Below are positions 4,576 to 63,305 of a DNA stretch of 64,000 bases, one piece after another. Position 1 is the stretch's first letter; each line of letters opens with the position of its first letter. A program made the position numbers and the translations under genes. Source of the stretch: Bolinopsis microptera (taxonomy: Eukaryota; Ctenophora; Tentaculata; Lobata; Bolinopsidae); contig NC_087084.1 of NCBI RefSeq assembly GCF_026151205.1, positions 968,312-1,032,311 on the forward strand, written 5' to 3'. The notes under the pieces are model-generated. The model saw nothing but the letters and a program-made list of their open reading frames with translations. It was not told the DNA's origin and did no database searches.

Positions 4576-7500
4576 GTAAGTGTATTAGTTATTTATTTTT
4601 TTCGAGTAATGTTTTTAGGTGTCCGCAGACGCCTGGACTTTTAATTTTAATTTTCTCCCCTCTCGTAATAAAAGTCATTCTCGAACCCTTCAAATGAAAG
4701 TGTAGCATTTGATGACCAAAACTAATTTGAGGTAATTTTTTGTTACATCCACCCAGATTGGTAATTTTACATGACTATCCTCTCACCATAACCTTGTCAT
4801 ACGTTGTATGACCCGCCGCGCACGAGTGCGCGGCTCCCCCTGTATTGTAGAATGTAGAAACTCTACAGTAGAAACTTTATAGTGAAGCGACAGTGGGGGT
4901 CACCGCGTGATACAACCATAACCATGATAATAGTGAACGCTTTTTCTCAGGTTATTGGAGCGAATTTTGATTTTTCAGATGCTGACTCGTCAGGACAAGC
5001 AGCAACCTGTGAACAAGGGTTCGTTATAGATGGCGAAGGTAAGTTGAATTAGCCGATATTTTGTCCCTGTATATTTACCAAAATGATTTTGAAGTATATT
5101 ACGAGATTTTTGGGTTACTCGTTGCAGTCAGTGTAATTCAATATTTCTATAACTTTACTAATCAACTTAATTAACTAAACTGTGCATTATCAGGTTGTAG
5201 AGGTTGTCCCGCCGGTACCAAAGCTAAGTCCGATCAAACAGGTTGTGACACGTGTCCGTTAGACTCATACAGGTGAGTTCAATGTGAAACGTTTCCGCTA
5301 GACTCATACAGGTGAGTTTAATGTGAAACGTGTCCTCTATACTCATACAGGTGAGTTCAATGTGAAACGTGTCCTCTAGACTCATACAGGTGAGTTTAAT
5401 GTGAAACGTGTCCTCTAGACTCATACAGGTGAGTTCAATGTGAAACGTGTCCTCTAGACTCATACAGGTGAGTTTAATGTGAAACGTGTCCTCTATACTC
5501 ATACAGGACAGTTCAATGTGAAACGTGTCCTCTAGACTCATACAGGTGAGTTCAATGTGAAACGTGTCCTCTAGACTCATACAGGTTAGTTCAATGTGAA
5601 ACGTGTCCTCTAGACTCATACAGGTGAGTTCAATGTGAAACGTGTCCTCTAGACTCATACAGGTGAGTTCAATGTGAAACGTGTCCTCTAGACTCATACA
5701 GGTGAGTTCAATGTGAAACGTGTCCTCTAGACTCATACAGGTGAGTTCAATGTGAAACGTGTCCTCTAGACTCATACAGGTGAGTTCAATGTGAAACGTG
5801 TCCTCTAGACTCATACAGGTGAGTTCAATGTGAAACGTGTCCTCTAGACTCATACAGGTGAGTTCAATGTGAAACGTGTCCTCTAGACTCATACAGGTGA
5901 GTTCAATGTGAAACGTGTCCTCTAGACTCATACAGGTGAGTTCAATGTGAAACGTGTCCTCTAGACTCATACAGGTGAGTTCAATGTGAAACGTGTCCTC
6001 TATACTCATACAGGTGAGTTCAATGTGAAACGTGTCCGCTAGACTCATACAGGTGAGTTCAATGTGAAACGTGTCCTCTAGACTCATACAGGTGAGTTCA
6101 ATGTGAAACGTGTCCGCTAGACTCATACAGGACAGTTCAATGTGAAACGTGTCCTCTATACTCATACAGGTTAGTTCAATGTGAAACGTGTCCTCTATAC
6201 TCATACAGGACAGTTCAATGTGAAACGTGTCCTCAAGACTCATACAGGTGAGTTCAATGTGAAACGTGTCCTCTAGACTCATACAGGTGAGTTCAATGTG
6301 AAACGTGTCCGCTAGACTCATACAGGACAGTTCAATGTGAAACGTGTCCTCTATACTCATACAGGTTAGTTCAATGTGAAACGTGTCCTCTATACTCATA
6401 CAGGTTAGTTCAATGTGAAACGTGTCCTCTAGACTCATACAGGACAGTTCAATGTGAAACGTGTCCTCTAGACTCATACAGGTTAGTTCAATGTGAAACG
6501 TGTCCTCTATACTCATACAGGTGAGTTCAATGTGAAACGTGTCCTCTATACTCATACAGGTTAGTTCAATGTGAAACGTGTCCTCTAGACTCATACAGGT
6601 GAGTTCAATGTGAAACGTGTCCTCTATACTCATACAGGTTAGTTCAATGTGAAACGTGTCCTCTATACTCATACAGGTTAGTTCAATGTGAAACGTGTCC
6701 TCTAGACTCATACAGGTGAGTTCAATGTGAAACGTGTCCGCTAGACTCATACAGGACAGTTCAATGTGAAACGTGTCCTCTATACTCATACAGGTTAGTT
6801 CAATGTGAAACGTGTCCTCTATACTCATACAGGTTAGTTCAATGTGAAACGTGTCCTCTAGACTCATACAGGACAGTTCAATGTGAAACGTGTCCTCTAG
6901 ACTCATACAGGTGAGTTCAATGTGAAACGTGTCCTCTAGACTCATACAGGTTAGTTCAATGTGAAACGTGTCCTCTATACTCATACAGGTGAGTTCAATG
7001 TGAAACGTGTCCTCTATACTCATACAGGTGAGTTCAATGTGAAACGTGTCCGCTAGACTCATACAGGTTAGTTCAATGTGAAACGTGTCCTCTATACTCA
7101 TACAGGTGAGTTCAATGTGAAACGTGTCCTCTATACTCATACAGGTTAGTTCAATGTGAAACGTGTCCTCTAGACTCATACAGGTGAGTTCAATGTGAAA
7201 CGTGTCCTCTAGACTCATACAGGTGAGTTCAATGTGAAACGTGTCCTCTAGACTCATACAGGTGAGTTCAATGTGAAACGTGTCCTCTATACTCATACAG
7301 GTGAGTTCAATGTGAAACGTGTCCTCTATACTCATACAGGTGAGTTCAATGTGAAACGTGTCCTCTAGACTCATACAGGTGAGTTCAATGTGAAACGTGT
7401 CCTCTAGACTCATACAGGTGAGTTCAATGTGAAACGTGTCCTCTAGACTCATACAGGTGAGTTCAATGTGAAACGTGTCCTCTATACTCATACAGGTGAG

Positions 7501-10500
7501 TTCAATGTGAAACGTGTCCTCTAGACTCATACAGGTTAGTTCAATGTGAAACGTGTCCTCTAGACTCATACAGGTGAGTTCAATGTGAAACGTGTCCTCA
7601 AGACTCATACAGGTGAGTTCAATGTGAAACGTGTCCTCTATACTCATACAGGTGAGTTCAATGTGAAACGTGTCCTCTATACTCATACAGGTTAGTTCAA
7701 TGTGAAACGTGTCCTCTATACTCATACAGGTGAGTTCAATGTGAAACGTGTCCTCAAGACTCATACAGGTGAGTTCAATGTGAAACGTGTCCTCTATACT
7801 CATACAGGTGAGTTCAATGTGAAACGTGTCCTCTATACTCATACAGGTGAGTTCAATGTGAAACGTGTCCTCTATACTCATACAGGTTAGTTCAATGTGA
7901 AACGTGTCCTCTATACTCATACAGGTGAGTTCAATGTGAAACGTGTCCTCTAGACTCATACAGGTGAGTTCAATGTGAAACGTGTCCTCTAGACTCATAC
8001 AGGTGAGTTCAATGTGAAACGTGTCCTCTAGACTCATACAGGTTAGTTCAATGTGAAACGTGTCCTCTAGACTCATACAGGTGAGTTCAATGTGAAACGT
8101 GTCCTCTAGACTCATACAGGTGAGTTCAATGTTAAACGTGTCCTCTAGACTCATACAGGTTAGTTCAATGTGAAACGTGTCCTCTATACTCATACAGGTG
8201 AGTTCAATGTGAAACGTGTCCTCTAGACTCATACAGGTGAGTTCAATGTTAAACGTGTCCTCTAGACTCATACAGGTTAGTTCAATGTGAAACGTGTCCT
8301 CAAGACTCATACAGGTGAGTTCAATGTGAAACGTGTCCTCAAGACTCATACAGGTGAGTTCAATGTGAAACGTGTCCTCTATACTCATACAGGTGAGTTC
8401 AATGTGAAACGTGTCCTCTATACTCATACAGGTTAGTTCAATGTGAAACGTGTCCTCTATACTCATACAGGTGAGTTCAATGTGAAACGTGTCCTCTAGA
8501 CTCATACAGGTGAGTTCAATGTGAAACGTGTCCTCTAGACTCATACAGGTGAGTTCAATGTGAAACGTGTCCTCTAGACTCATACAGGTTAGTTCAATGT
8601 GAAACGTGTCCTCTAGACTCATACAGGTTAGTTCAATGTGAAACGTGTCCTCTAGACTCATACAGGACAGTTCAATGTGAAACGTGTCCTCTATACTCAT
8701 ACAGGTGAGTTCAATGTGAAACGTGTCCTCTAGACTCATACAGGTGAGTTCAATGTGAAACGTGTCCTCTAGACTCATACAGGTGAGTTCAATGTGAAAC
8801 GTGTCCTCTAGACTCATACAGGTGAGTTCAATGTGAAACGTGTCCTCTAGACTCATACAGGTGAGTTCAATGTGAAACGTGTCCTCTAGACTCATACAGG
8901 TAAGTTCAATGTGAAACGTGTCCTCTAGACTCATACAGGTGAGTTCAATGTGAAACGTGTCCTCTAGACTCATACAGGTGAGTTCAATGTGAAACGTGTC
9001 CTCTATACTCATACAGGTGAGTTCAATGTGAAACGTGTCCTCTAGACTCATACAGGTGAGTTCAATGTGAAACGTGTCCTCTAGACTCATACAGGTGAGT
9101 TCAATGTGAAACGTGTCCTCTAGACTCATACAGGTGAGTTCAATGTGAAACGTGTCCTCTATACTCATACAGGTGAGTTCAATGTGAAACGTGTCCTCTA
9201 TACTCATACAGGTGAGTTCAATGTGAAACGTGTCCTCTATACTCATACAGGTGAGTTCAATGTGAAACGTGTCCTCTAGACTCATACAGGTGAGTTCAAT
9301 GTGAAACGTGTCCTCTATACTCATACAGGTGAGTTCAATGTGAAACGTGTCCTCTATACTCATACAGGTGAGTTCAATGTGAAACGTGTCCGCTAGACTC
9401 ATACAGGTTAGTTCAATGTGAAACGTGTCCTCTATACTCATACAGGTGAGTTCAATGTGAAACGTGTCCTCTATACTCATACAGGTTAGTTCAATGTGAA
9501 ACGTGTCCTCTAGACTCATACAGGTGAGTTCAATGTGAAACGTGTCCTCTAGACTCATACAGGTGAGTTCAATGTGAAACGTGTCCTCTAGACTCATACA
9601 GGTGAGTTCAATGTGAAACGTGTCCTCTATACTCATACAGGTGAGTTCAATGTGAAACGTGTCCTCTAGACTCATACAGGTGAGTTCAATGTGAAACGTG
9701 TCCTCTAGACTCATACAGGTGAGTTCAATGTGAAACGTGTCCTCTAGACTCATACAGGTGAGTTCAATGTGAAACGTGTCCTCTATACTCATACAGGTAA
9801 GTTCAATGCGCTACTGGTGCGGAGGTATTAGGTAAACAGGTTCTGACACGTGACAGTGTTTAACCTAATCTCGCCCAATAACGACCCTGTCAATCGAATT
9901 GTTAAGGTAGTTTGAAAGTTACGAACAGTGTGCTTAACATTTCATTAAATAACATTTCATATTCTGACACTTACTTTCAGCTTGGCGGAGGCTACAGAAT
10001 GTGTAGAATGTGCTGGCTCGTTAGGAACTGTAAGTGATGGAAGCACCAAGGCTGAGGATTGCGCCAGTAAGTTTAACTTCTAATGTTTTTTTTTGTTTAA
10101 AAAAAAAAATTTTTTAAATTTTTTAATATGCAACCTACTAAAAACTTCTAATGTTTAAATTTAATCTACCATAAGCTGCAGTCACTCCAGTTATTTTTAA
10201 TGGTTGGTATGGCCTGCTTAGGTTTGGTTTATCGTTTCTACTGCCACATGTACGCTTTGGCGTCGTTGGAATTGTGAGTTGATATGATATCATATTCATC
10301 TTACTATATATAAAGCGAGACGATATATATGGATGTGTTTATCCGTACCATTTTACTGACACCACGGCATCAATTTTAACGCGACTTTCCGCAAAAAGCG
10401 TAAAAGATATACAACTGATACTTTTTTGACTGGGTCAAATGCTTTAATGGCCTCCAAATCAGCATGAAAAAATAAAAAATTGGCCAAGGAATAGGAGTTT

Positions 10501-13500
10501 TAGAGCCCAAAATTTGAACCCCCAAGTGGTGTCAAAAACGCGAATTAAATTGGTAATTATTATTTAGTCTCTTGAGTCTTGACACTATTTTAGGGTTATA
10601 CGGGTTCCTGCTAGTAGTCTTAACGATTTGAGGTTACCAATGAGTTAACGTTCAATTGTAGGAATTGAAATATTTCGTTACAGGCAGTAAGTTTACAGGT
10701 TGCATCGTAAGGAATGATTGAGATAATGATTTGAACAGCCCATTTTAATTTTCTATTATTTACCGTGGCACACAGAACCATGCACCTGCTACTTCCGGAT
10801 AATTTGAAAATATAAATAAACTAGATAGCCCGTGGTAACAGGGACGAAGCTAGTAGTATTCTTTGAAAGAAAGTTTTAATCGCATCAAAAATATCCATCC
10901 CAACTGAAGATACAGCCGATTTAAATATAAAACACTTTAAACACAACGTAATTACCACAAAACCGATCAAAATGACGTTAAAACAATCTTTGCACGTGCA
11001 TGACGTGTGCATTAAAACACCGTTGCTATGGAACGTTTTGGTTGTTACCTAAATTTCTATTTTTCGTCTAATTTGCACGTGGGCGGTCGTACGTACAGTG
11101 TACAGAATTTTCTGAATTATAATAGAGATAAACTATCATATCCGGACGATTTTGATTTCCCGAAAATAATCGCACATACATTTTGAACTGTGGTGTGATT
11201 GAGATTTCTCTTTTGATTCTTAAATTGCCCTATCTGTGTCACTGATTCGTTAATTTGAAAAAATCATTTGGGATATTGTATCAGTACAGTATAATCATCA
11301 TCAACTTGCTCTAACCATGTACTATGTAATACAGTATCATGTACTATGTAATACAGTATCATGTACTATGTAATACAGTATCATGTACTATGTAATACAG
11401 TATCATGTACTATGTAATACAGTATCATGTACTATGTAATACAGTATCATGTACTATGTAAAATCTTTCATTCAGAATCAAAGATTATTCAAAAGAATTG
11501 TAGGTAACTAAAACTGCTGACTGTCTGCCGTTCGACTGTCATGTGGACTTGATTAGTGCACTTGCTACTAATTTTTGTGGTTTGGTAATTTGGTCGTGAA
11601 TTATCAAACCGAAAAAATTGTAAAACGTTGGACCATGGACATTGGACATCGATAAAATATTCTTCATTATCATTATAACGAAATTAACCTTTTTAGCCGT
11701 GTGTACGGTCCCGAGCGTGGAGAATACGATAACCGGAACGACACCTTCTGGTACCCGGTTGGCAGATGGCGAGGATTCCACCATCGTGTGTGATAGTGGC
11801 TACCAGTACGCAGATCAGGAAACACAAATTATATCATGTGACGTTTCCCTCGATAACAACGGGTACCCTGCCGGCTGTAGAAGTAAGCATCTGTTTTATC
11901 CATTAATTTGGAAGTATTATATATTTGTTTAGATTATATATTTTTAATTGTAGTTGACGAAATGAGAGTCTCCACTCAGTGTGTTAAAACATAATTCTTT
12001 GTCGACGTTTCGGCTACATGCCTTTGTCATAAACAGGACAAAGGCATGTAGCCGAAACGTCGACAAAGAATTATGTTTTAACACACTGAGTGGAGACTCT
12101 CATTTCGTCAACTACAATTAAAAATAAATGATTGACCCACTCATAAGAGCAAAACAAGATTACCAGATTATATCCACCAGCGTGCGCTTTTTCGCATAGC
12201 GGGCTCTCACCAGCCCGCTGTCAAAGGGCCCGATATCTCTACAGCCCGCTCATGATATAGCCCGCTAACAAGTGACATTTAATTTGACCAGTAGCAATAT
12301 AGCCCGGAGTTCTCTAAAATATTTTCAGTTTCTGTATCGTCTCCATGTGAAATTCCTTATTACACTGACTATATATACATTTTAATTTTGTGTCCGGTAG
12401 GGCTGCTCATGCAGCTCGTGAGCAGATGACATGATACTTTGATTTATATCAAAGTTATTATAACACACTACATAATACACATCAGCACTATAATCCCCCT
12501 ATATTATTGATATTCATCGTCATTGACATTACATTCATTATTCCCAGGGCCCAGGAATGCAGTGCATCTCCAGCCCCTATATACGACACAGCCCTTTATG
12601 ATTGGCTTACATTGAACACGTGACGTGTTACCATGGTTACAACAATTAGTGGCGACCTTTTCTAGAGTTGGCTTTTATACAAGCTCCATTGTTTATTTAT
12701 AAAATTATATATTAACTGTAATACGCCCGCTGGTGGATATAATCCACATCACCTCGACCCGCGGGCGGAAAAATCGTATAGCACTCGGGCCCGATGGGCC
12801 CTCCGTGCTATACGAAAATATGTCCTCCTCGGGCTAGCGCCCTCGGGGACATATGAAATATTGCACGCGCGTGCGCGTGCAATATTTTGTTCCGCCCGCG
12901 AGTCTCCGGTGATATGTATATATATATTTGTTTAGATTATATATTTGTTTAGATTATATATTTGTTTAGATTATATATTTGTTTAAATTTATAATTATAT
13001 ATTTGTTAAGATGATCATGAGATGCCCAATGCTCCGGTTTTAGAATAAGGCAGAAATGAACCACCTCATCGATTATCAATAAAACGGTGAGTATGCATGC
13101 TTTGGTTGTTACTCAAATACTCGTCAAAAATTCTTTTATAAGTTATTGAAAAAATTCGTTTTTCAGAAATAACGCTGACATTACCGAATAATCCCTCCTT
13201 AAAAATGGGTAGCGAAGCGTCACTTACATGTGTCGTCGAAAATGAGTCGGATAACTCAGATATAACTTGGTTCAAGGGCGAGTCGCAACTCCTTAGTCCA
13301 GATGACAACTACGGATTTGATATCGATACAGATGCACTAACTTCTATTTTGACTATCAAAGTTCTGGATGATACTCACACTACATCCTACTCATGTAGAT
13401 TGAACTACCTATCTCCACTGCTCAGTGAACAGTCCATAACTGGTGACCTCACTGTCCTAGGTCAGGATAAGTTTTATTAAATGATACCTTTTTTAATTAA

Positions 13501-16500
13501 AAAATTATTTAATTTTAAAATATTTTTGTTTAGAACTAACCCGATAATATTACTTCAAGATTTTAAGCGAAGATATCATGCTACATTTTCAGTACTTTTA
13601 ATAGAAGAATTAAAAGTACAAAAATAAGTGAACGAACACTTATATTCTAGCATCGTTACTTATTCTAGCATCATTCTAACCAAAAATAATATTGTGCACG
13701 ATTATCCTAGTTCGATGATCCATGGCCATCTTACGAAAACAAATTTGTCTATTTCAAATTATTTTGGTGTCTGGTAGAACTTCAGCAAGGATCCTTCACG
13801 TCACGTTATGCCCATATAAGGATCTAGAATATTAAATTAAAGGATTATTCTGTGGTAAATGCTCGATCACTACTAATAGGATCAATATGGAAATGAAGCG
13901 TGTAAATTTACGAACTTTAAATTTAACGTATTAACAATTAATATGTATAATAGATGTGGATTTTCGTGGGGAGGTGAGCTACATTTGTTTACTTTTAAGG
14001 TGGCGGTTCTGCTCAGCAGGAGAAAGAGGTGATGCACATTTTGTATTATGGAACGCTTGTATTATGGAACGCTTGTTCTACTCATGACCTAGGGCCTAGG
14101 GGGTTAAGCTGAAACCGAAAGATCGGGGCAATCGTCACCTTAACTGATCGAACAGGTACTAACACAATTTTCATAAAGAAATGTTTATAGCAGCTTGTGA
14201 GAGATAAGGAAGTGTTTATAGTTCTGAAACCTAGTTAATTCATTTTTTCGTGCAATTTTGGGTCAGAAACAGTCACAAAAATGAGTTAACAACAAGGTCG
14301 ATTTCCCGGTTATTATTAAGCTTTCGTTCATAAAATAATTCGGGACCTTCAAAAGGGGTAACAAGAAGGAGTTACAAGCGTTACAAGCGTTCCATAATAC
14401 AAAATTTGTATCACCTTTGTCTCCTGCTGAGCAGAACCGCCACCTTGAAAGTAAACGAGAATCCACGAGAATCCACATCTATAACTTATCGTTTTATTTC
14501 TTCTTTACCTACAAAACATGTATTTTTCAGACATTCAGATTTTTGTTTCTGACGTCGAGGTCGATCCTGCTGACGCCAAAACTCTAATTGTAGCTGGGGA
14601 AAGCCTTTCTCTCATGTGCCAAATGAAGGCTGATAGCCAATATGTGGACAGAGAGATAGAATGGTTTTATGATGTTGACAAAACAGTATGTAAAATTCAT
14701 AATTATCATTTCGTAGGAAGACAAAAGGTTAATTACAAACTTTCTCGGGGAACACTAAACGAATACGATCAAGAAGAACATAAATAAAAACACTTCAGCC
14801 AACAGGCGTATTGGATGGTGAAACGTCGCCGTACAAACACAAAACTGTGACAAAAACTGCTGAACTGGCAGACACGGCAGATTATACTTGTACAGGTAGG
14901 AAAGGGGATAATGGTGTCTGGGACTCTGGAGCGGACCACCTCCAAAACCCTGACATTCTTTTTCATACATGGCTATTTTTCAATTATTGTTAAAGAAATG
15001 AATATCAATGTTGATGGCCGATCTTCTGCTCAATCCAACGGTCCCTAACGGCCATCATGGGATTGGTTTAACAAATGTTGTTAATAAATGGAGGATTTTA
15101 CTGAATTATCACCGGAAGTAACTAACGATCGGTTTCTCTAATCATCCAACACTTAGGCACGTACGGTAACGATGGAGCATCATTACCGCCCCTACCTATA
15201 ACTAAAAAGGTAAAGGTGTACGTGGTGGGCTACAGTGAGCAACCAGACAACACGTTTAGTGAAGTCGGAGCGGCCCTCACCCTCAGCTGTACTGTACAGG
15301 GAGATGCTGCCACCACAATCACGTGGTATGTGTTGTTAAAATAAATCTACAGGGTGGGCCAAAAGTCAGTACCCATACGTTGGCCTTTATAGCTAAGTCA
15401 CTGAGTGCCCAATTTAAATACTTCTTTCTGGTATGACTTACTACCACCACTGGTTCGAGGAATTTGTCAACTCGAAAAATATTCGCGTTCATTTTTTTCA
15501 AATGGAGGTTCATTTTCACATTTATTTGATAGTTTGGATAGTCAGATCAAGCTAAATGTTATTGAATTGTGTTTGGCCATTCGAATTACGTTTGTCCTGA
15601 AAGAATTAGAACTGTAGCTTCTCAGATGACCGAGATATGAAGCATAACGAGTTTATTAATTACGTGTGATCAGGTGATTGGTTTACCTAATCACGTGATA
15701 AGGTGACCCCGTTAACTACCCCGTTAAACATTATGGGAATTGTTAAGGGTGCCCAATTAAGGTGTCGTGTCACGGTGTCACATAATCACCCAGTCAATTT
15801 TGTTAACGAGATACAGAAAATGCTTGATAACTTCGTCATTTCTAATCCGTTTTGCCTCATGTTTTCAGATCATATGCAACATTTGATAATCTACCGTCTC
15901 TGAAAAAAATTAGGCGTTCAGCATGTCCAGAGAAAACAATATAGGTGTTTTAATATTGAATGGGCGTGGTCTAAAATATTCGAATTTTCAAATTTTGACG
16001 ACGGAATCCTCGAACCAGTAAGTACAGTATGCCATCTGCAAAGCAACATCTCTCAAATATAAAACACGGCGGAGCTATTAAGACCAACGTATGGGTACTG
16101 ACTTTTGGCCCACCCTGTAGTTAAAATAGATTCAGTTAAAATAGATTCAGTTGAAATAGATTCAGTTAAAATAGATTCAGTTAAAATAGATTCACTTAAA
16201 ATAGATTCAGTTAAATAGATTCAGTTAAAATAGATTCAGTTAAAATGAATTCAGTTTTTTCTTTCTTTAATTTGTTGTTTTCTTAGTTGTATAACTTTTC
16301 CACTCTATTGCTGCTCAAATTTACACACACTTCGAAAATGTTTACAAATTATCTGATTGATTACATCAATACATTACAATTAAAATCGGTTTATTGTTTC
16401 ACCAAATTTTCTGTTAAAGTTTAAACTGATTAAACTGTATTTTCCGCACACCTGCGAAGTCAACCACCTTTATTACAGGACTAAAACCGTTGAGGGGGGT

Positions 16501-34603: not shown

Positions 34604-34642
34604 ACTATGTTGCAAGATAACTGTTAGCGTTGAAAAACGTAC

Positions 34643-40500: not shown

Positions 40501-40696
40501 GACATTTGTACTGTAATTTCACTTTCCCCCACCCTACTCCACCCAAACAACGACCTCCATCCTGACACCACTCAATCACATATAACATTGTCCACCACAT
40601 CACATTCAGCTGACGACGATTAACACATGTTTACATTGAAAGCTTCTACAAGTTAATCAGCGTATCTCTTATATTTTCTAACCTAACTCCACTCAG
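37559..40696 (+). pseudogene. Penelope-like element, degenerate mirror copy
   Basis: Same insertion point as the left copy: it lies between TTTAGATTG at 37558 and TTTAGATTGACG at about 40697. The first ~550 bp, including 129 codons from the start, are clean. From ~38100 single-base losses and gains break the frame many times; a clean 164-codon piece (38961-39455) still shows the RT core up to GGTMGSPL. Losses in homopolymer runs suggest sequencing error rather than natural decay. Confidence 0.85.
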
Positions 40697-41445
40697 TTTA
40701 GATTGACGTGGTATCTAGAGTGGTAATCGGGCAAGATCCGGAAGTGACTCTGCAATGTAGGCATATTTAATAAGTATCTTCATCAAAAGACTTCCGTCTA
40801 CTTCAAGAGTTGAATGTTTGTTTCCTCCAGAAATGGCTTCCTTGGACCGTGGTGAACTTTTTTACCTGAACTCTCCCGTACTATTTTGCCAGTCACTGTT
40901 GCTGGTTTTCTGTCAATTCCAGATAACACCAGGATATGGTTGTATCAGAGCTTTCCACACTTCTATTATCACTGATTTCAACATCTAAGTAAGTTAGATA
41001 AATGAATATTGCTAATTTGAAACAATACACCGCCTCCTATTATCATTTAGTTTATCTGGTATGAATTGAATTTGAAATTTGGCTGTGCGATAGAAATGAG
41101 TACCGAATGAAAAACGAAGTTGCAAGATAAACTGTTTGCGTTGAAAACGTACCATAAACGTTTAGATTGACGGTGGTATCTCGAGTGGCTGGAATCGGCA
41201 AAGATCCGGAAGTGACTCTGCAAGTGTAAGCAGTATCGTCGTTCACAAAGAGTTCCGTCTACAGCAAGAGTTGATGTTTGTGTCCCTCCAGAATGGCTAC
41301 CTTGGACAGCGGTGAACTTTTCAGCTGGACACTGGTCCTGTACTAGTCGCCAGGTCACTGTTGCTGTTTCTGTCAATCCAGTGATTACACAGGATATGGT
41401 TGTATCAGAGCCCTTTTCTTCACATCTTATTCAATGATTCAACAT
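40697..41445 (-). pseudogene. Ig exons B' and A', error-rich mirror copies
   Basis: Exon B' (about 40697-40984) and A' (about 41153-41445) align throughout with exons B and A but carry several indels each, so no full frame survives. A relic matching 27301-27351 follows at ~41618-41670. Confidence 0.75.
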
Positions 41446-41769
41446 CTGAGTATGTTTGATAAATAAATACTCTCCAATTTGAAATTAATGACACTCGCAG
41501 ATATTATCATTTATTTTGTCTGGTATGAACTAATGTGTAATGGGCTGTGAGATAGAAATCAGAAATGAGTACATAATCAATAAACTTTTGCTAGATAACT
41601 TTTAGCGATGAAAAACGACCATAAACGTAAGATTGACGGTGTATCCGAGTGCAGGAATTGGGCAAAGATGTTGGATGATTAAATATATAGGTTTGTTTGC
41701 TTGATTGGATAAAACCTCATTAAATATACTGTGACCACACCCAGATTTAGAAACAGTACTTTAACAAAA

Positions 41770-42260
41770 ACGGGGGGGGGGGGCTAATTCAAAATGCGAA
41801 TCCTTTTTCTCAATACGTGCTTCTATAACGTACCATAATTCCTACTTCAATCCGGTACGTACGATTAAACGTTGACGGTAGATCACGAAAGAAATCTTTT
41901 CTCCGACAGCCGAATGTAAATTCGCATTTGTAAACACTCATCATTTTTATCAACATCCGAGTCAGTGTATTTGACTTCTGAAGCTCATTGTCCGAAATAT
42001 AAGGGGGGGGGGGGGTAAAGATAATAAAATTTGGGGGGGGTTGGGAGTTGGTTTGGAATGGGGGGGGGGGGGGGGGGGGGGGGTTTGTTTTTTTTTGGGA
42101 ATTTTAATGTGTTTTTGTGTGGGGGTTTTTGGGTTTTTTTGTTTTTTTGTAGCAGGGGGTTTGGTTTTGGGAATTGTTTGTAAGGGGGGATAGAGTTTTA
42201 AAATAGGGGGATATAAGATTAAAAGGGTATTGGTTGGATTGGGGGAAATTGGAAGATTTT
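41770..42260 (-). other. Corrupted stretch with long G runs where exon 23' should be
   Basis: Positions 42001-42083 contain several runs of 8-20 or more G, followed by G/T-rich sequence unlike either flank. Recognisable remains of exon 23 are found only up to ~41995. This looks like failed base calling or consensus, not biology. Confidence 0.75.
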
Positions 42261-50854: not shown

Positions 50855-51582
50855 ATACACATATTACACATAGTACACATATGACCATATTACACATAGT
50901 TACAACATATTACACATATTACACATATTACACATATTAACACATAATTACACATAATTACACTTAATTACACATTAATTACACATATTTAGCACATATT
51001 TACACATAATTACACATAATTACACATAATTACACATAATTACACATAATTACACATAATTACACATAATTATACATAATTACACATAATTACACATAAT
51101 TACACAAAGTTACATATAATTACACATAATTACACATAATTACACATAATTACACATAATTACACATAATTACACATAATTACACATAATTACACATAAT
51201 TACACATAATTACACATAATTACACATAATTACACATAATTACACATAATTACACATAAATACACATAATTACACATAATTACGACAATAAAACACATTA
51301 ATACACATATAACACATATTACACATAATTACACATAATTACACATAATTACACATAATTACACATAATAACACATAATTACACATAATTACACATAATT
51401 ACACAATTACACATTTACACATATACACATATTACACATATTAGCACATATTACACATATTACACATATTACACATATTACACGAATATTTACACATATA
51501 ACACATATTACACATATTACACATATTACACATCTACACATATTGAACACATATTACACATATTACACATATTACACATATT
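50855..51582 (-). repeat. 9-bp satellite, right arm (degraded)
   Basis: Mirror of 17541-18240. Units read as ACACATATT, or as ACACATAATT with an extra base across most of the array. A consistent one-base insertion per unit is typical of a homopolymer or base-calling bias. Confidence 0.85.
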
Positions 51583-52114
51583 GGCTGTCTCCGTATCCAT
51601 GAAGACAGTGCCGGGTTATCCAGCGGGTTCTTTACCTTGCACGACACAAACAACCGTACTCCACCTGTTAGGAAGCCTAGCCTTACTGTTATCCTCGCTG
51701 ATACCGAAGTTCTGGGAATAGGGTAGAAAATTTTCAGGATGCAATTACTATAGGGAGGTTTTGTTGAGGATCTTTTGAACTTCAGCTTTTCGGCACGCTG
51801 ATTATTTAGCTGTAATGGAATAAAAATAAAATGAAATCCAGTAATTCATCAAATCTGTATTTTAGCATTACCAATTATCAGTGAAAACAAATAGGAAAAT
51901 ACATACATTGCGTGCTCTCTAATAAAATCTAAACCGATCAAAGAACTGTTACTACCCAGAACGTGACCTGCCAGCGACAGTACTTCCACAGTTGTTTCCC
52001 CGATCGTGGCAATGCACTTATAAGATCCCGAGTCGACATATTTGAGCACTGCTAATTCTAATTCACGCGAGAGTTATTAACAGTGTAGTGGATTTTGATT
52101 TTCAGGCGTTGGGT

Positions 52115-52675
52115 TGATACAACCCCCTCAACGGTTTTTTAGCTCCTGTAATAAAGGTGGGATTTGATTCAACACTCCCCTCACCGGTTTTAGTCCTGTA
52201 AATAAAGGTAGGTTGATTCACGCGCCCCCACCTCAACGATTTATTCCTGTAATATAGGTGGAGTATTCGAATTCAACCGCCCTCAACGTTTTGTCCTGTA
52301 TAAAGTGGGTTTGATTCACCCCTCAACGGTTTTAGTCCCTGTAATAAGGTGGGGTTTGATTCAACCCCCTCAACGGTTTTAGGTCCTGTATTAAAGGTTG
52401 GTTTGAATTAACCCCCTCAACGGTTTTAGTCCTGTAATAATGCGTGGTTGAATTTAACCCCCTCAACGTTTTTAGTCCTGTAATAAAGGTGGGTTTGTTC
52501 TACCCCCTCAACGTTTTAGCCTTAATACAGGTTGGAAATTGATCAAACCCCCTCACGTTATTTAGTCCCTGTAATAAAGGTGGTTTTGATTTAACCCCCA
52601 CACAGGTTATAGTCCCTGTTAATAAAGTCGGTTTGATTCACCCCCTCAACGTTTAGTCCTGTAAAAAAGGTGGAT
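52115..52675 (-). repeat. 46-bp acceptor satellite, right arm (degraded)
   Basis: About 12 units of CCTCAACGGTTTTAGTCCTG plus TAATAAAGGTGGG with many indels; mirror of 16464-17010. Confidence 0.85.
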
Positions 52676-53041
52676 AGACTTCGCTATGTGTGCGGAAAAT
52701 ACAGTTTAATCAGTATTAAACTATAACAGACAAATTGTGGTGAAACAAGTAAACGATTTAATGTAATTGTATGAAGTAATCAATCAAGATAATTTTGTAA
52801 ACATTTTCGAAGGTGTGTAAATTTATCAGCAAAAAAAAAAGCAATAGATCGAAAAGTTGATACAACTAAGAAAACAACCAAATTAAAGAAAGAGAAAAAC
52901 TGATTCCATTTTAACTAATCTATTTTAACACTGAATCAATTTAAACTGAATCTAATTTAAGTGAATCTATTTTAACTGAATCTATTTTAACTGAATCTAT
53001 TTCACTGAATCTATTTTTAACTGAATCTATTTTAACTACAG

Positions 53042-53813
53042 GGTGGCCCCAAAAGTCAGTAAACCCATACCTTGGTCTTAATAGCTCCGCCGTGTTTTAT
53101 ATTTGAGAGATGTTGGCTTCTGCAGATGGCATACGGTACTTACCTGTTCGAGGATTCCGTCGTCAAAATTTACAAATTCGCGAATAATTTAGACCACGCC
53201 CATTCGAATAATAAAACACCTATATTGTTTTCTCTGGACATGCTAGAACGCCTAATTTTTTTTCAGAGACGTAGATATCATGTTGCATAAGACCTGAAAA
53301 CATGAGGCAAAACGAATTAGAAATGACGAGAGTTATCAAGCATTTTCTGTATCTCGTTAACAAAATTGACTGGTGATTATGTGACACGGTGACACGACAC
53401 CTTAAGTTGGCACCCTTAACAATTCCCATAATGTTTAACGGGGTAGTTAACGGGGTCACCTTATCACGTGATTAGGTAAACCAATCACCTGATCACACGT
53501 AATGAATAAACTCGTTATGCTTCATATCTCGGTCATCTGAGAAGCTACAGTTCTAATTCTTTCAGGACAAACGTAATTCGAATGGCCAAACACAATTCAA
53601 TAACATTTAGCTTGATCCGACTATCCAAACTATCAAATAAATTGAAAATGAACCTCCATTTTGAAAAAAATGAACGCGAATATTTTTCGAGTTGACAAAT
53701 TCCTCGAACCAGTGGTGGTACGTAAGTCATACAAGAAAGAAGTATTTAAATTGGGCACTCAGTGACTTAGCAATAAACCAACGTATTGGTACTGATTTTT
53801 TGGCCACCCCTGT
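53042..53813. mobile_element. Mariner-type element, right-arm copy
   Basis: Mirror of 15350-16117. Termini CAGGGTGG and CCACCCCTG are present with small indels. Confidence 0.75.
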
Positions 53814-56329
53814 AGATTTCTTTTACCAACACATACCACGTGTAGTGGTGGCAGCATCTCCTGTACAGTACCAGCTGAGGTGAGGGCCGCCCGACTTCAC
53901 TAAACGTGTTGTCCGGTTGCTCACTGTAGCCCACCACGTACACCTTTACCCTTTTTAGTTATAGGTAGGGGCGGTAATGATGCCCAACGTTACCGAGTAC
54001 TGCCTACGGTTGATGATTGAGAGAAACCGGATCGTTAGTACTTCCGTGATAGAATCAGTAAATCCTCCAATTATTAACAACAATTGCGTTAAAAACCAAT
54101 CCCATGCATTGGCCGTTAGGACCGTTGGATTGAGCAGAAGATCGGCCATCAACATTGAGTATTCAATTTCTTTACCATAATTGAAAAATAAGCCATGTAT
54201 GAACATAAGAATTTCATGTAGTTTTGGAGTGGTCCGCTACCATTATCCCTCTTTCCTTCCTAACAAGTATAATCTTGCCTTCTGCCAGTTCAGCAGTTTT
54301 CTTCAACATTTTGTTTTGTCAACGGCGACTGGTTTCACCATCGCAAATACCCGGTTTGGCTGAAGTGTTTTTTATTTATTTTCTGCTTGAACGTATTCGT
54401 TTAGTGTTTCCCCGAGAAATTTTGTAATTTAACCTTTTGTCTTCCTACGAAATGATAATTATGAATTTTACATACTGTTTAAGTCACCATCATAAAACCA
54501 TTCTCATCTCTCTTCCACATATTGGCTATCAGCCTTCATATTGGCACATGAGGGAAAGGCTTTCCGCAGCTAAAATTAAGTTTTGGCGCACAGATCGACC
54601 TCGACTAAAACAAAATCTGAAGTCTGAAAAAACAATGTTTTGTAGTTAAAAGAAGAAATAAAACGAAAAGTTAAAGATGTGGATTCTCGGGATTCTCGTT
54701 ACTTTCAAGTGCGGTTCTGCTCAGCAGGATACAAAGGTGATGACAAATTTGTATTAAACGCTTGTAATCGCATGTAACTCTCCTTGTTACCCCTTTTAAA
54801 GGACCCGAATATTTAAGAACCAAAGCTTATAATAACCGGAAATCGCCTGCTGTTAACTCATTTTTGTGACTGTTTCCTGACCCAAAATTTGCACGAAAAA
54901 ATTAATTAACTAGGTTGCAGAACGATAACACTTCCTTATCTCTCACAAGCTGCTAAAACATTCTTTATGAAATTGTTAGTACCTGTAGAATCAGATAAAG
55001 TGAACGATTGCCCCGATCCTTCTGGTTTCAGCTTAACCCCCTAGGCCCTAGTCATGAGAACAATCGTTTCCTAAAATACGAAGCGTTCCATAATAAAAAT
55101 TGCATCACCTCTTTCTCCTGCTGACAAACCGCCACCTTAAAAGTAAACAAATTGTAGCTTCACCTCCCCACGAAAATCCCCATCTATTATACATTAATTG
55201 TTAATACGTAAATTTAAAGTTCTAATTTACGACGCTTCATTTCCATATTGGATCCTATTAGTAGTGATCGTAGCAATTACCACAGAAAAAATCCGTTAAT
55301 TTTATATTCTAGATCCTTATATGGGCATAACGTGACGTGAAGAGCCTTGCTGAAGTTCACCAGACACCAAAATAATTGAAATAGACAAATATGGTTTTCG
55401 TAATGATGGCCATAGGATCATCGAACTAGATAATCGTGCACAATATTATTTTTGTATAGAAAGATGCTAAATAAGTAACGAAGCTAGAATATAATTTGTG
55501 ATCGTTTCACTTATTTTTGTACTTTTTTAGATAATCTTACTATTAAAAGTACTGAAAATGTAGCATGATATCTTCGCTTAAAATCTGAAGTACTAATTAT
55601 CGGTTAGTTCAAACAAAAAATTTTAAAATTAAATAATTTTTTTTAATTAAAAAGTATCATTTAATAAAACTTATCCGGACCAGCCAGGGGTCACCAGTAA
55701 ATGGACTGTTCACTGATCAGTGGAGATAGTAGTTCAATCTACATGAGTAGGATGTAGTGTGAGTGTATCATCCAGAACTTTGATAGTCAAAATAGAAGTT
55801 TAGTTGCATCTGTATCGATATTCAAATCCGTAGTTTGTCATCTGACTAAGGAGTTGCGACTCGCCTTGAACCAAGTTATATCTAGTTATCCGACTCATTT
55901 TCGTCGACACATTTAAGGGACGCGCTCGCTACCCATTTTAAGGAGGGAGTATTCGGTAATGCAACGTTATTTCTGAAAACGATTTTTTTTTCATAACTTA
56001 ATAAAAGAATTTGACGAGTATTTTAAGTATAACGAACCAAAGCAGCATACTCACCGTTATTATGATAATCGATGCGGAGGTCATTTCTCCTTAAACTAAA
56101 ACCGAGCATTTCGCATCTCCATGATCATCTTAACAAATATATAATTATAAACTTAAACAAATAATAATCTAAACAAATATATACATCTAAACCAAATATA
56201 AAATCTAAAGCAAATATATAAAATACAAATCACCCGGAGACTCGCTGCGGAAACAAATATTGCACGCGCACGCGCGGTTGCAATATTTCACTATGTCCCT
56301 GCACCGGAGTGGGGGGGGGAGGAGGGAGG

Positions 56330-56374
<45 letters not shown>

Positions 56375-57346
56375 CGGCTAGCCGAGGAGGACATATTTTG
56401 CGTATAGCACGGAGGGCCTATCGGCCCCGCGTTGCTATACGAATTTTCCGCCCTCGGGTCGAGGAGATGTGGATTATATCCCCAGCCGGGCGTATTAACA
56501 GTGTAAATATATAATTTTATAAATAAACAATGGAGCTGTAAAAAACCACTCAAAAAAGGTCCTACTATTGTTGTAACCATGGTAACACGACACGAGTTCA
56601 ATGTAACCAATCATAAAGGGCTGAGTCGTATATAGGGCTGGAATGCACTGCATTCCTGGGCCCTGGAATAATGAATGCTAATGTCAATGACTAAGAATAT
56701 CAATAATAATAGGGGGATTATATGCTGATGTGTATTATGTTAAGTGTGTTATAATAACTTGATATAAATCAAAGTATCATGTCATCTGCTCACGAGCTGC
56801 ATGACAGCCCTACCGGACACAAATTAAAAATGATAGATAGAACATGTTAATAAGGAATTTCCACATGAACATACAGATAAACTAGAAAAATTTTTAGAGA
56901 ACGTTTTCCCCCCCCCGCTATAGATTGCTACTGGTCCAAATTAAATGTCACTTGTTAGCGGCTATATCTGAGCGGGCTGTATAGAGATATCGGGCCCTTT
57001 GACAAGCGGGCTGGTGAGAGCCCGCTATGCGAAAAACGCACCTGGTGAAATAATCTGGTAATCTTAGTTTTGCCTTATGATGGGTCAATCATTATTTTTA
57101 ATTTGTAGTTGACGAAAATGAGAGTCTCCACTCAGTGTGTTAAAACATAATTCTTTGTCGACGTTTCGGCTACATGCCTTTGTCCCTGTATATGACAAAC
57201 ATGTAGCCGAAACGTCCGACAAAGAATTATGTTTTAAACACACTGAGTGGAGACTCTCATTTCGTCGAACTACAATTAAAAATATATCATCTAAACAAAT
57301 ATATAAAACTTCCAAAATAATGGATATAAACAGATATCACGCTTAC

Positions 57347-57532
57347 TTCTACAATCGGCAGGGTACCCGTTGTTCTCGAGGGAAACGTCACATGTTATAA
57401 TTTGTGTTTCCTGATCTGCGTACTGGTAGCCACTATCACACACGATGGTGGAGTCCTCGCCATCTGCCAACCGGGTACCAGAAGGTGTCGTTCCGGTTAT
57501 CGTATTCATCACGATCGGGACCGTACACACGT
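57347..57532 (-). CDS. Exon 5', sushi/CCP domain, right copy
   Basis: 186 nt, same length and phase as exon 5. Encodes VCTVPIVMNTITGTTPSG and IITCDVSLENNGYPADCR, with at least five residue changes from the left copy. The sequence is clean here, so the changes look like real divergence. Confidence 0.75.
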
Positions 57533-57747
57533 CTAAAAAGGTTAATTTCGTTATATGAAGAATATTTTATCGATGTCCAATGTCCATGGTCCAACGTTTT
57601 ATAATTTTTTTGGTTTGATAATTCACGACCAAATTACCAAACCACAAAAAATTAGTAGCAATTGCACTAATCAAGTCTACATGACAGTCGAACGGCAGTT
57701 TTAGTTATGATTCTTTTGAATAATCTTTGATTCTGAATGAAAGATTT

Positions 57748-58247
57748 TACATAGTACATGATACTGTATTACATAGTACAGTATGTACTGTATTACATAG
57801 TACAGTATGTACTGTATTACATAGTACATGATACTGTATTACATAGTACATGATACTGTATTACATAGTACATGATACTGTATTACATAGTACATGATAC
57901 TGTATTACATAGTACATGATACTGTATTACATAGTACATGATACTGTATTACATAGTACATGATACTGTATTACATAGTACATGATACTGTATTACATAG
58001 TACATGATACTGTATTACATAGTACATGATACTGTATTACATAGTACATGATACTGTATTACATAGTACATGATACTGTATTACATAGTACATGATACTG
58101 TATTACATAGTACATGATACTGTATTACATAGTACATGATACTGTATTACATAGTACATGATACTGTATTACATAGTACATGATACTGTATTACATAGTA
58201 CATGATACTGTATTACATAGTACATGATACTGTATTACATAGTACAT
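57748..58247. repeat. 22-bp satellite, right arm (~23 units)
   Basis: Same unit as 11316-11461 but over three times longer; two units near 57770-57810 carry a CAGTATGTACTG variant. Confidence 0.94.
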
Positions 58248-58868
58248 GGTTAGAGCAAGTTGATGATGATTATACTGTACTGATACAATATCCCAAATGA
58301 TTTTTTCAAATTAACGAATCAGTGACACAGATAGGGCAATTTAAGAATCAAAAGAGAAATCTCAATCACACCACAGTTCAAAATGTATGTGCGATTATTT
58401 TCGGGAAATCAAAATCGTCCGGATATGATAGTTTATCTCTATTATAATTCAGAAAATTCTGTACACAATTCAGGTGCATGGTTCTGTGTGCCACGGTAAA
58501 TAATAGAAAATTAAAATGGGCTGTTCAAATCATTATCTCAATCATTCCTTACGATGCAACCTGTAAACTTACTGCCTGTAACGAAATATTTCAATTCCTA
58601 CAATTGAACGTTAACTCATTGGTAACCTCAAATCGTTAAGACTATGAATATGATATCATATCAACTCACAATTCCAACGACGCCAAAGCGTACCTGTCGC
58701 TGTAGAACCGATAAACTAGACCTAAGCCATACCAATCATTAAAAATAACTGGAGTGACTGCAGCTTATGGTAGATTAAACATTAGAAGTTTTTAGTAGGT
58801 TGCATATTAAAAAATTAAAAAATTTTTTTTTTTTTTAAACAAAAAAAAACATTAGAAGTTAAACTTAC

Positions 58869-58954
58869 TGGCGCAATCCTCAGCCTTGGTGCTTCCATCA
58901 CTTACAGTTCCTAACGAGCCAGCACATTCTACACATTCTGTAGCCTCCGCCAAG
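58869..58954 (-). CDS. Exon 4', right copy
   Basis: 86 nt with intact splice sites (acceptor mirror at 58955, donor mirror at 58868). Encodes the same SLAEATECVECAGSLGTVSD module end as exon 4. Confidence 0.8.
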
Positions 58955-59112
58955 CTGAAAGTAAGTGTCAGAATATGAAATGTTATTTAATGAAATGTTA
59001 AACATACTGTTCGTCACTTTCAAACTACCATAACAATTCGATTGGGCGTTATTGGTTAAACACTGTCACGTGTCATAACATGGTTTACCTAATACCTCCA
59101 CACCAGTAGCGC

Positions 59113-60312
59113 ATTGAACTCACCTGTATGAGTCTAGAGGACACGTTTCACATTGAACTCACCTGTATGAGTCTAGAGGACACGTTTCACATTGAACTCA
59201 CCTGTATGAGTCTAGAGGACACGTTTCACATTGAACTAACCTGTATGAGTCTAGAGGACACGTTTCACATTGAACTAACCTGTATGAGTCTAGAGGACAC
59301 GTTTCACATTGAACTCACCTGTATGAGTCTAGAAGACACGTTTCACATTGAACTCACCTGTATGAGTCTAGAGGACACGTTTCACATTGAACTCACCTGT
59401 ATGAGTCTAGAGGACACGTTTCACATTGAACTCACCTGTATGAGTCTAGAGGACACGTTTCACATTGAACTCACCTGTATGAGTCTAGAGGACACGTTTC
59501 ACATTGAACTAACCTGTATGAGTCTAGAGGACACGTTTCACATTGAACTCACCTGTATGAGTCTAGAAGACACGTTTCACATTGAACTCACCTGTATGAG
59601 TCTAGAGGACACGTTTCACATTGAACTAACTTGTATGAGTCTAGAGGACACGTTTCACATTGAACTCACCTGTATGAGTCTAACGGACACGTTTCACATT
59701 GAACTCACCTGTATGAGTCTAGAGGACACGTTTCACATTGAACTCACCTGTATGAGTCTAGAGGACACGTTTCACATTGAACTCACCTGTATGAGTCTAG
59801 AGGACACGTTTCACATTGAACTCACCTGTATGAGTCTAGAGGACACGTTTCACATTGAACTCACCTGTATGAGTCTAGAGGACACGTTTCACATTGAACT
59901 CACCTGTATGAGTCTAGAGGACACGTTTCACATTGAACTCACCTGTATGAGTCTAGAGGACACGTTTCACATTGAACTCACCTGTATGAGTCTAGAGGAC
60001 ACGTTTCACATTGAACTCACCTGTATGAGTCTAGAGGACACGTTTCACATTGAACTCACCTGTATGAGTCTAGAGGACACGTTTCACATTGAACTCACCT
60101 GTATGAGTCTAGAGAACACGTTTCGCATTGAACTCACCTGTATGAGTCTAGAGGACACGTTTCACATTGAACTCACCTGTATGAGTCTAGAGGACACGTT
60201 TCACATTGAACTCACCTGTATGAGTCTAACGGACACGTTTCGCATTGAACTCACCTGTATGAGTCTAGAGGACACGTTTCACATTGAACTAACCTGTATG
60301 AGTCTAACGGAC
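59113..60312 (-). repeat. 39-bp donor minisatellite, right arm (~31 units)
   Basis: Same unit as 5257-9807 but about a quarter of the length. Unit variants differ from the left arm: here most units are GTGAGT with a few GTTAGT, and the GACAGT form common on the left is missing. Confidence 0.94.
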
Positions 60313-60372
60313 ACGTGTCACAACCTGTTTGATCGGACTTAGCTTTGGTACCGGCGGGACAACCTCTACAAC
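60294..60372 (-). CDS. Exon 3', right copy
   Basis: 79 nt, same module as exon 3. Its first donor is ACAG|GTTAGT, weaker than the GTGAGT used by the left copy, so the next unit's donor could compete. Confidence 0.78.
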
Positions 60373-60452
60373 CTGATAACGCACAGTTTAGTTAATTAAG
60401 CTGATTAGTAAAGTTATAGAAATATTGAATTACACTTATGACTGCAACAAGT

Positions 60453-62953
60453 CTGCCGTTTTCTGACAAAAGTGCTTAAGTAACACAAGGTTCATTTTGT
60501 GCAAATTGACTTTAAAGATTTCAATTCTGTAGTTGCTCTGGGCTAGCTGCTGTCAAATTTAAACTGCACCCACTATGTTTCTAAGGTGCTTTGTCGGCTT
60601 TTGAGACTTATGACAAGGTTTCATCATCCTAACTTTTTGGAAAGTGCCTCAAAATCACAAATTATAGTTTCAATTTCTTAGAAAAGTGCTTAAGTACAGT
60701 CACATCGGCAAATACTACATGTTCTGATGAAAATGACCCGTTCAAACCATTGGTCATCGAAGGTAAAACGAAAAATTAGCCTAAAACTGTTGTGATGAAA
60801 CATTGGTTGTAAATAGGGGACACGCTGAAATAGAAAATTTGAAATTTCGTTTTTTGAGAAAAGTGCTTAAGTACAGCCACATCAGCAAAAGCTTCATGTT
60901 CTGATGAAAATGACCCGTTCAAACCATTGGTCATCGAAAGTAAAACGAAAAATTAGCCTAAAACTGTTGTGATGAAACATTGGTTGTAAATAGGGGACAC
61001 GCTGAAATAGAAAATTTAAAAATTTCGTTTTCTGAGAAAAGTGCTTAAGTACAGCCACATTAGTGGGAACTTTATCTGCGATCATTCTGACCTAAAATTT
61101 TACGACAAATTGATTGATGGTGGTTTAAGAACACGAAAACACTCCCTTCTCCCCAGCGGATTAAAAAATAGTCGGAATTTTACCAGCATTTCAACGAAGA
61201 GTTGATTGGTGAAAGTACGGGATAATAATAAATAATTTTCTTTCTCTCGAAAATAAATTAAGAACTCAGATGAGGCTTCCTTCATAAAGACCAATGATTT
61301 GCGAATTATTGATATCGTAACGCGAGGCAAAGAAAAACAAGCGTATAACAATGTAACATAATTGTTGTACATAAATAAATGGTAAATATAATAATAATAC
61401 AAGAAATAGCGGAAAATAGATGATTTTTAGTCAAACACTCGATTAAGATCTGTTATATCTGTACTATCAGGCAAGTTCATCCAGAATACCCTACTATTCG
61501 GGGCCATAAGCCTGCACAGTTTACGTATATAATGTCTTGTTTTTTGGGAGTAGCTATCCCCCGGGGCTCTTCCTGGGCGAAAGCTATTTTTCAACCTATG
61601 GAAATGAGTCTCTCGTCTTTTTGTCTGAGAAATGGAGTGAAATGAAAGGAAACCTCGTCATGATTTGTTTTCCATTCCATTTCTACAGACCCACGCTGGA
61701 AACTTACAACTTTAACATCTTTAGTTTTTTAGTTGCTTGTTCCGTAGGACCTTGGCCACGATTCAAAGTCTGTGCAGTTCATGCTTATCGCAGTACCCAC
61801 CTGTTCAACTGCCTGAACAAAGTCCTTATAATCATGAAGTTGACCTGATTGTTTAATGGACAACTCCACTTTATGGTGGAATGAGTCTGCACTCATAAAG
61901 GTGTGCACTGGCTCTAGATACTTGACCGTTATCTTGTCCAGGTCAACATCTGGGCTGTTAATAATTGAACATAGGGCAGTGAATAAAGTACAACACTTGT
62001 TTTGAGCAGAACAATTGTCTGCCCAAAAAATGATCTCCCTGCTACCACCAATCTTACCAACTGGCAAAATGTTTTATTGCCCTTATCCAAGTCGAGGACA
62101 CATTCTCATCTTTCCTTCCTGCGATTGACTCATTCCAAAGAATCGCTAAAGGAGCTCCGTCTGACCCCAGCCTCGCGAAGGTCTCGTTAAATGTGACAAG
62201 GCGTCTTGTAAAAATCGCCTCCTTGTACTCCGGCATGTGTGGTAGTAAAAGAACTTTCTCCATATCAACAGAGAAGGAGCAGTGAAGCAAATCGCTTCTA
62301 TCTCTTTGGTAATGTTCCCTTAGCTTGCCTGTCGATAATCCCGCCAGTCTCAAATAATAAGAGAATAAAAAATTTTAGAGCAAATTATGACGTATATTTT
62401 GAAACGTTCTGCATTGACAAATCGGCAATTTTGACGGCGAAGCTAGCGTTTCTGAAGTTTATGACCATCACCAATCGATCCACCGTGAAAATTTAGATTT
62501 GTTAGTACCGATTATATAGTTTCAGTTGGCAGAATCAACATTTAATTAAACGTATAATGGCACTTAAGCACTTTTGTGAGAAAACGAGCCCGTTTTCACA
62601 AAAGTGCTTAAGTGACATAAATTCTTTTTTCCCAGGCCAAAAGACCCACGATCACCAAATTGCCGTCACTAGGCCAGTTTTGGACGTAGAAAACAATGCC
62701 ACCGTTTTCAGTTCTCGAAATGGCATCATTTTTGAAATAAACGGCACCCGTTTTCCAAAATGTTACTTAAGCACTTTTCTCAGAAAAATTACCATTTTTT
62801 GCATTTTAGGGGGTTCCAAAAAGGGGGTTTTGGGGGGTCGGCGAATGTATCCAATGGTCCTCAGGGATAGTTCTTGACCCAAAAACAAAAGTTAGACCAA
62901 AAAACCCGAAATTTCCAAAATGTTACTTAAGCACTTTTGTCAGAAAACGGCAG
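60453..62953. mobile_element. 2501-bp terminal-inverted-repeat DNA transposon, right arm only
   Basis: Perfect 33-bp inverted termini (60453-60485 and 62921-62953) starting CTGCCGTTTTCTGACAAAAG. Flanks are AAGT on both sides (60449-60452, 62954-62957). The left arm at ~5121 has the empty site GAGTAACCC. The motif AAGTGCTTAAGT recurs near both ends: at 60470, 60683, 60860 and 61038 on one side, and at 62560, 62601, 62762 and 62921 (either strand) on the other. Two ~175-bp blocks at 60683-60860 and 60860-61038 are near-identical. Confidence 0.9.
61729..62353 (-). pseudogene. Broken transposase-like gene with DNCSAQNK motif
   Basis: Two overlapping minus-strand frames look like one protein broken by a frameshift near 62060. 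The first (62353-62054) has FSVDMEKVLLLPHMP, IFTRRLVTFNETFARLG and ILWNESIAGRKDEN. The second (62067-61729) has EIIFWADNCSAQNKCCTLF and KYLEPVHTFMSADSFHHKVE. This order matches an abundant uncharacterised protein family in invertebrate genomes. The two Asp boxes (SVD, ADNC) and later Glu/His-rich block could be a DDE-type core. N- and C-terminal parts were not found, so the element is probably non-autonomous. Confidence 0.7.
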
Positions 62954-63035
62954 AAGTAACCCAACAATCTCGTAATATACTTCAAAATCATTTTGGTGAA
63001 TATACAGGGACAAAATATCGGCTAATTCAACTTAC

Positions 63036-63123
63036 CCTCGCCATCTATAACGAACCCTTGTTCACATGTTGCTGCTTGTCCTGACGAGTCAGCATCTGCA
63101 AAATCAAAATTTGCTCCAATAAC
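63036..63123 (-). CDS. Exon 2', right copy
   Basis: 88 nt; encodes ANFDFADADSSGQAATCEQG, with one residue change (SDAD to ADAD) from exon 2. The in-frame ATG upstream (MIIVNAFSQ) is uninterrupted, whereas exon 1 has no counterpart on this side. Confidence 0.78.
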
Positions 63124-63305
63124 CTGAGAAAAAGCGTTCACTATTATCATGGTTATGGTGAGAGGATAGTAATGTAAAATTCCCAATCTGGGTGGATGCA
63201 ACAAAACATAACCTCAAATTAGTTTTGGTCATCAGATGCCACACTCTCATTTGAAGGGTTCGAGGATGACTTTCATTACGAGAGGGGAGAAAATTAAAAT
63301 TTGTC

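Follow-up and report, generated by a model that had tools for sequence, protein, structure and literature searches.

The long inverted repeat of immunoglobulin (Ig) domain exons that takes up most of a 64,000-base stretch of contig C13 of the ctenophore Bolinopsis microptera (C13:968312-1032311; the window) can be compared with natural palindromes and with assembly artefacts. Gene-converted palindromes of sex chromosomes have long inverted arms and a near-identical centre. The locus shares both features, but differs in that its inner right arm is of raw-read quality and carries hardly any independent substitutions. A willow example of such palindromes is treated in PMC7023750. Fold-back artefact reads (Breakinator, PMC12870357) are alike in that they go over one locus twice, the second time on the opposite strand and starting close to the turn; the account given there puts them at ~0.55-0.6% of nanopore genomic reads and states that they can tangle assembly graphs. 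The locus is unlike these reads in being known from a finished contig only, in having an inner 4.85 kb that is nearly clean, and in an outer part that comes from another copy. Gap closing of the TGS-GapCloser type, described in PMC7476103 as the use of raw long reads to close gaps with a need for correction, is similar in its raw-quality patch between cleaner contig parts; TGS-GapCloser offers correction, and the tool behind the present assembly may differ. Palindromic reads from multiple displacement amplification (MDA) are likewise inverted chimeras that mislead long-read assembly, as presented in PMC13265396; here there is one turn only and no sign of genome amplification.

The left arm, 4643-34394, is collinear in reverse with the right arm, 34599-63301, as the original prediction of a long inverted repeat had held (Table 1). 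The divergence of the right arm is, as far as the assembled sequence tells, of three different kinds: a near-identical centre (34599 to ~39450), a middle with the character of read error (~39450 to ~57341; the patch), and a biologically diverged outer part (copy B). Very probably, a contig end folded back on itself, was patched with raw left-arm sequence, and was joined to the related copy B. The palindrome is probably not real and, because the fold itself would be spurious, the inverted orientation of copy B is unproven. The basis of all findings is the assembled sequence. Genome-wide comparisons cover the 264.65-Mb, 232-contig assembly, in which C13 measures 16.35 Mb; flanks compared for inverted homology extend 20 kb to the left and 40 kb to the right of the window, and negative window positions and those above 64,000 lie in these flanks.

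The error signature of the 17.9-kb patch is observed directly, differences from the left arm staying dense from ~39450 to ~57341. Pooled alignments to left 26986-29535, 19200-26841, and 11889-19200, with the unalignable 26842-26985 left out, contain 779 mismatches in 16866 aligned bases (4.62%) and 963 indel events (5.71 per 100 bases), of which 825 are one base long. Random substitution is expected to give one third transitions; the patch value is lower, at 182 of 779 (23%) versus 91 of 178 (51%) in seven outer flank blocks (Fisher p about 2e-12). Of the 825 one-base indels, 476 (58%) fall within or next to a run of the base concerned, versus 45-47% by chance; homopolymer context was rejected as a strong raw-read marker, a strict recount with control leaving this modest excess only. 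The window has four G or C runs of at least 12 bases, all inside the patch (41772, 42003, 42060, and 56331), with three more in the 20-kb left flank and one in the 40-kb right flank; this clustering lends weak support. Because the differences are indel-rich, transition-poor, and private to the right arm, and because a garbage stretch is among them, 39450-57341 is read as sequencing error, and the patch is probably uncorrected long-read sequence with little or no independent evolution.

To polarise the changes between the arms, two transposons were compared with their other genomic copies, and part of the gene with a relative elsewhere in the genome; that the error signature is private to the right arm is likewise directly observed. 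Within the patch, right-private to left-private substitutions number 34:0 with each of copies L014, L015, and L016; 23:0 with the partial copy L013; 52:1, 51:2, and 43:2 with L024, L025, and L026; and 110:12 with the C9 relative L027, whose 86% identity to the left arm makes some coincidental left-private sites expected. Sites at which all three sequences differ (none in the first set, two per transposable-element row, four in the gene row of L027) were left out of the Fisher tests, which used one outgroup row each (L014, L024, L027, and L029). Where the patch lacks bases, the other copy sides with the left arm except in 6 of 45 (L025), 1 of 30 (L026), and 1 of 79 (L027); where it has insertions, the exception is 1 of 55 (L027). 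In the outer flanks, four other copies give a right-private to left-private split of 25-26 : 14-15, which would fit independent evolution of the two sequences. Both arms have private changes, as looked for in a palindrome, outside ~57341 (14-15 of 40 left-private); in the inner arm left-private changes are nearly wanting, which very recent conversion could also bring about; indel- and transversion-rich differences private to one copy, as looked for in a raw patch, are found in the patch. Because substitutions and indels there are nearly all right-private, the inner right arm appears, as far as compared, to repeat the sequence of the left arm itself in damaged form. The original prediction objected that a fold-back read would give identical arms; because most of the right-arm difference resembles uncorrected read error, this objection does not hold over the inner ~22.7 kb (34599-57341).

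The tandem arrays agree with the polarisation, their lengths being kept inside the patch and changed outside it. Spans were taken from Tandem Repeats Finder (TRF), and only arrays reported in both arms were compared. Left and right spans inside the patch are 555 and 564 bases for the 46-bp array, 703 and 725 for the 9-bp array, 530 and 526 for the 21-bp array, 138 and 140 for the 15-bp array, 182 and 175 for the 50-bp array, and 73 and 76 for the 17-bp array. Outside the patch, the 39-bp array spans 4565 and 1211 bases (117.1 vs 31.1 units) and the 22-bp array 146 and 502 bases (6.6 vs 22.6 units), bearing out the variable-number tandem repeat (VNTR) differences noted previously. TRF reports no right-arm counterpart for two short left arrays, 14041-14076 and 24903-24937, that fall within the patched range. 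Fuzzy-pattern unit counts in the patch, right versus left, are 8 vs 12, 16 vs 26, 65 vs 78, 8 vs 9, and 3 vs 3; the lower right-arm counts are taken to be errors breaking the pattern, and TRF spans are preferred. Genuine-looking divergence between the arms, with the originally listed VNTR differences, occurs only outside ~57341, whereas ~39450-57341 has the signature of sequencing error.

At 34599 the forward 465-bp array enters an Ig exon and then switches to reversed intron through a shared GAAA, in line with the 4-5 bp microhomology predicted for the turn; 204 bases of the forward array are unmirrored there. From the turn to ~39450, the right arm differs from left 29536-34394 by 11 substitutions and 12 indel events (11 and 16 in a slightly longer comparison with left 29500-34394). 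The few polarisable differences in this centre are all right-private (1 substitution, 5 deleted bases, and 2 insertions; left-private 0). A frameshift interrupts one Ig exon of the right arm (35906-36355). For a cluster of changes at left 32909-33033, no left unit on its own gives an exact match, the best reaching 94.9%. Outward across the inner edge of the patch, ~39450, 100-base bins hold 0 events in five bins, 3-4 in two, and then 7-10.

An open reading frame (ORF) of 909 aa at 28480-31209 (minus strand) is open in the left arm, and its right counterpart is in pieces, being broken already in the nearly clean inner right arm, where its first part lies. Frames broken in the patched copy only, a further mark of a raw patch, are thus seen for this ORF, though the nearly clean part is also frameshifted. 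It has no Pfam match over the cut-off, and we take it to be Penelope-like from its motifs; among the matches listed, at least 39 longer ones elsewhere (at least 690 bases) have 95-99% identity to 29400-31434. Protein changes in right-arm exons inside the patch are not to be taken for biology.

Biological divergence outside the patch is observed directly. Beyond ~57341 the differences become single-nucleotide polymorphisms (SNPs) and clean indels of 4-11 bases, and this edge is good to ~100-200 bases; substitutions amount to 1.8-4.4% in the seven outer flank blocks and 2.9-7.1% in smaller outer blocks inside the window. The inverted homology runs on in collinear blocks (about 91-96% identity) as far as about window positions -2501 and 80059 (C13:965810 and 1048370), farther than the outer edges of ~4640 and ~63305 first proposed; no collinear homology was found beyond these points in the 17.5 kb on the left and 24 kb on the right that were compared. 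A few out-of-order matches beyond the edges, such as -6329 to -5727 with 63357-64008, look like dispersed repeats, and a whole-arm haplotype fold of C13 is unsupported in the flanks compared. The left arm has an element-like insertion at ~176-1240, without counterpart on the other side; the sequence 172-1245 recurs at five other places with 99% identity, and no clear target-site duplication was recognised at the insertion.

Left-flank searches were redone with non-repeat stretches and all candidates scored (40 of 40 and 23 of 23), a repeat-flooded query having given the best 40 of 7211. C13:959391-961971 has only short weak matches elsewhere in the assembly. For C13:948312-951971, all close matches are local tandem copies at C13:946-957 kb, those elsewhere being at 65-88% and mostly below 75%. 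The gene stretch 19200-24800 was found at full length only in the two arms (best 40 of 2143 candidates). Because collinear homology stops and two left-flank stretches are without an allelic partner, copy B may be a paralogue, in a region that holds another inverted duplicate, or it may be an allele whose ends have changed in structure.

The steps by which the contig could have arisen are as follows. The left arm would be a real Ig-gene region (copy A), and a spurious fold-back near 34599 would have terminated its contig. One uncorrected long read, or a few, running back over copy A (39450-57341) would have bridged the space to the next contig, and this fill would have been joined by similarity at ~57341 to the clean end of copy B, lying inverted. 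We infer the spuriousness of the fold, and likewise gap filling or contig-end extension as the mechanism. The original prediction had offered a misjoin or a converted duplication; the misjoin is retained, with a second diverged copy only from ~57341 outwards.

Several observations weigh against this sequence of events. The ~4.85 kb directly after the turn is nearly clean, which a single raw fold-back read leaves unexplained; there may be more than one read behind the fold, or an accurate read. The turn offset of 204 bases is just outside the 200-base limit for fold-backs in PMC12870357, where PacBio HiFi data are described as having virtually no fold-backs. The density of differences is unchanged across the outer edge at ~57341 (4-8 events per 100 bases outside vs 4-10 inside in the first bins, with one bin at 24), so that this edge is set by the kind of difference alone. 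Two outer-arm blocks, 174 and 364 bases long, show no difference from the left arm (100% identity), so that low divergence also occurs outside the inner part. With L027, 12 of 122 sites are left-private, slightly more than a rough chance expectation of ~6. G or C runs of 32 bases are common genome-wide (14381 and 20720 overlapping matches) and so are non-diagnostic, which rules out poly-G as a stand-alone marker of raw patches. Finally, a true palindrome with a recently homogenised, uncorrected centre would look similar.

A real inverted duplication of this last kind, with the inner ~22.7 kb of each arm homogenised by recent gene conversion and the right arm uncorrected for want of reads assignable to one arm, is unlikely. 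It would accord with the nearly clean assembly of the turn, with the two fully identical outer blocks, with collinear homology stopping on both sides as in a segmental duplication, and with another inverted pair nearby (C13:1053740-1058851 vs 1206931-1212028, 98%). However, conversion would need to end no more than a few hundred bases from the point at which the kind of difference changes, an objection that is partly circular in that error hides real differences; hardly any left-private changes occur in the inner region; and the left arm is clean throughout, when reads from both arms should presumably have allowed correction of the right. The locus would then be a head-to-head Ig-gene palindrome on C13, with six arrays homogenised very recently, outer parts diverged by a few percent and set apart by acquired VNTR lengths and insertions, and the patch a secondary blemish, an outcome that we doubt to the same degree. 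Less likely still is a plain haplotype misjoin, with haplotype 1 as the left arm and haplotype 2 as the whole right arm: the outer arm differs by SNPs, indels, VNTR lengths, and a one-sided element-like insertion, as alleles may, and for copy B alone such a misjoin is possible, but inside ~57341 the right arm repeats the left one with errors and is no second haplotype, and neither the end of collinear homology at -2501/80059 nor the two partnerless non-repeat stretches of the left flank suit it.

Table 1. Features of the inverted Ig-gene region, in window positions unless C13 is given.
Feature	Position	Strand	Description
Left arm	4643..34394	+	Clean sequence; open Ig exons, 909-aa transposon ORF, eight compared tandem arrays
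Asymmetric stretch, 204 bases	34395..34598	+	Forward array continues, without mirror at the axis
Turn point	34599..34602	.	GAAA common to forward Ig exon and reversed intron
Inner right arm	34599..39450	-	Near-identical to left 29536-34394; frameshifts in transposon ORF and one Ig exon
Probable uncorrected long-read patch	39451..57341	-	~10% error-like differences from left arm; outer limit +/- ~100-200 bases
Read garbage in patch	41994..42298	-	305 bases unalignable to left 26842-26985; G runs of 13 and 24
G-rich run in patch	56311..56374	+	Longest pure run 44 G; absent from left arm
Outer right arm (copy B)	57342..63301	-	Clean related copy; other VNTR lengths, multi-base indels; homology to ~C13:1048370
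465-bp-type Ig exon arrays	C13:1072307-1074047, 1085319-1088351, 1182024-1190823, 1234851-1239445	both orientations	Sequence match, among matches listed

The region contains Ig-domain exons (Pfam Ig families including C1-set, Ig_3, and I-set), which are partly arranged as tandem arrays with a 465-bp unit. Among the matches listed, the further arrays of this type on C13 have 87-92% identity, and related Ig-unit arrays on C4, C7, and C11 have 77-87%. Within C13:1052312-1062311, bases 1429-6540 match C13:1206931-1212028 inverted, and parts of this locus recur at eight places on C7 (9.72-10.36 Mb; 92-94% identity over 4.2-5.5 kb): the duplicated family is a dispersed one. This inverted pair suggested a second palindrome, centred near C13:1.132 Mb, and no self-inverted match was found in 1126312-1136311, the only stretch examined. 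C13:946180-956720 holds local tandem duplicates (82-97%) of the left-flank stretches L011:11-2150 and L011:2788-3660, and a minisatellite, with offsets that suggest a unit near 31 bp, lies in the left flank at window -14020 to -11557. Three G/C-run loci elsewhere were inspected: L033 is a G run within a simple repeat, L034 has two runs in ordinary sequence, and L032 (C1:588500-589100, on another chromosome-sized contig) is homopolymer-inflated and resembles low-quality read data, which suggests raw patches elsewhere in the assembly.

The locus serves as a worked, read-free example in which transition fraction, polarisation by genomic copies, and tandem-array length separate raw patches from biology. 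Taken at face value, the window would point to a palindrome under gene conversion, to duplicated immune-type genes and pseudogenes, and to rapidly changing proteins in this Ig region of the ctenophore; in the inner right arm, every one of these signals can stem from uncorrected reads.

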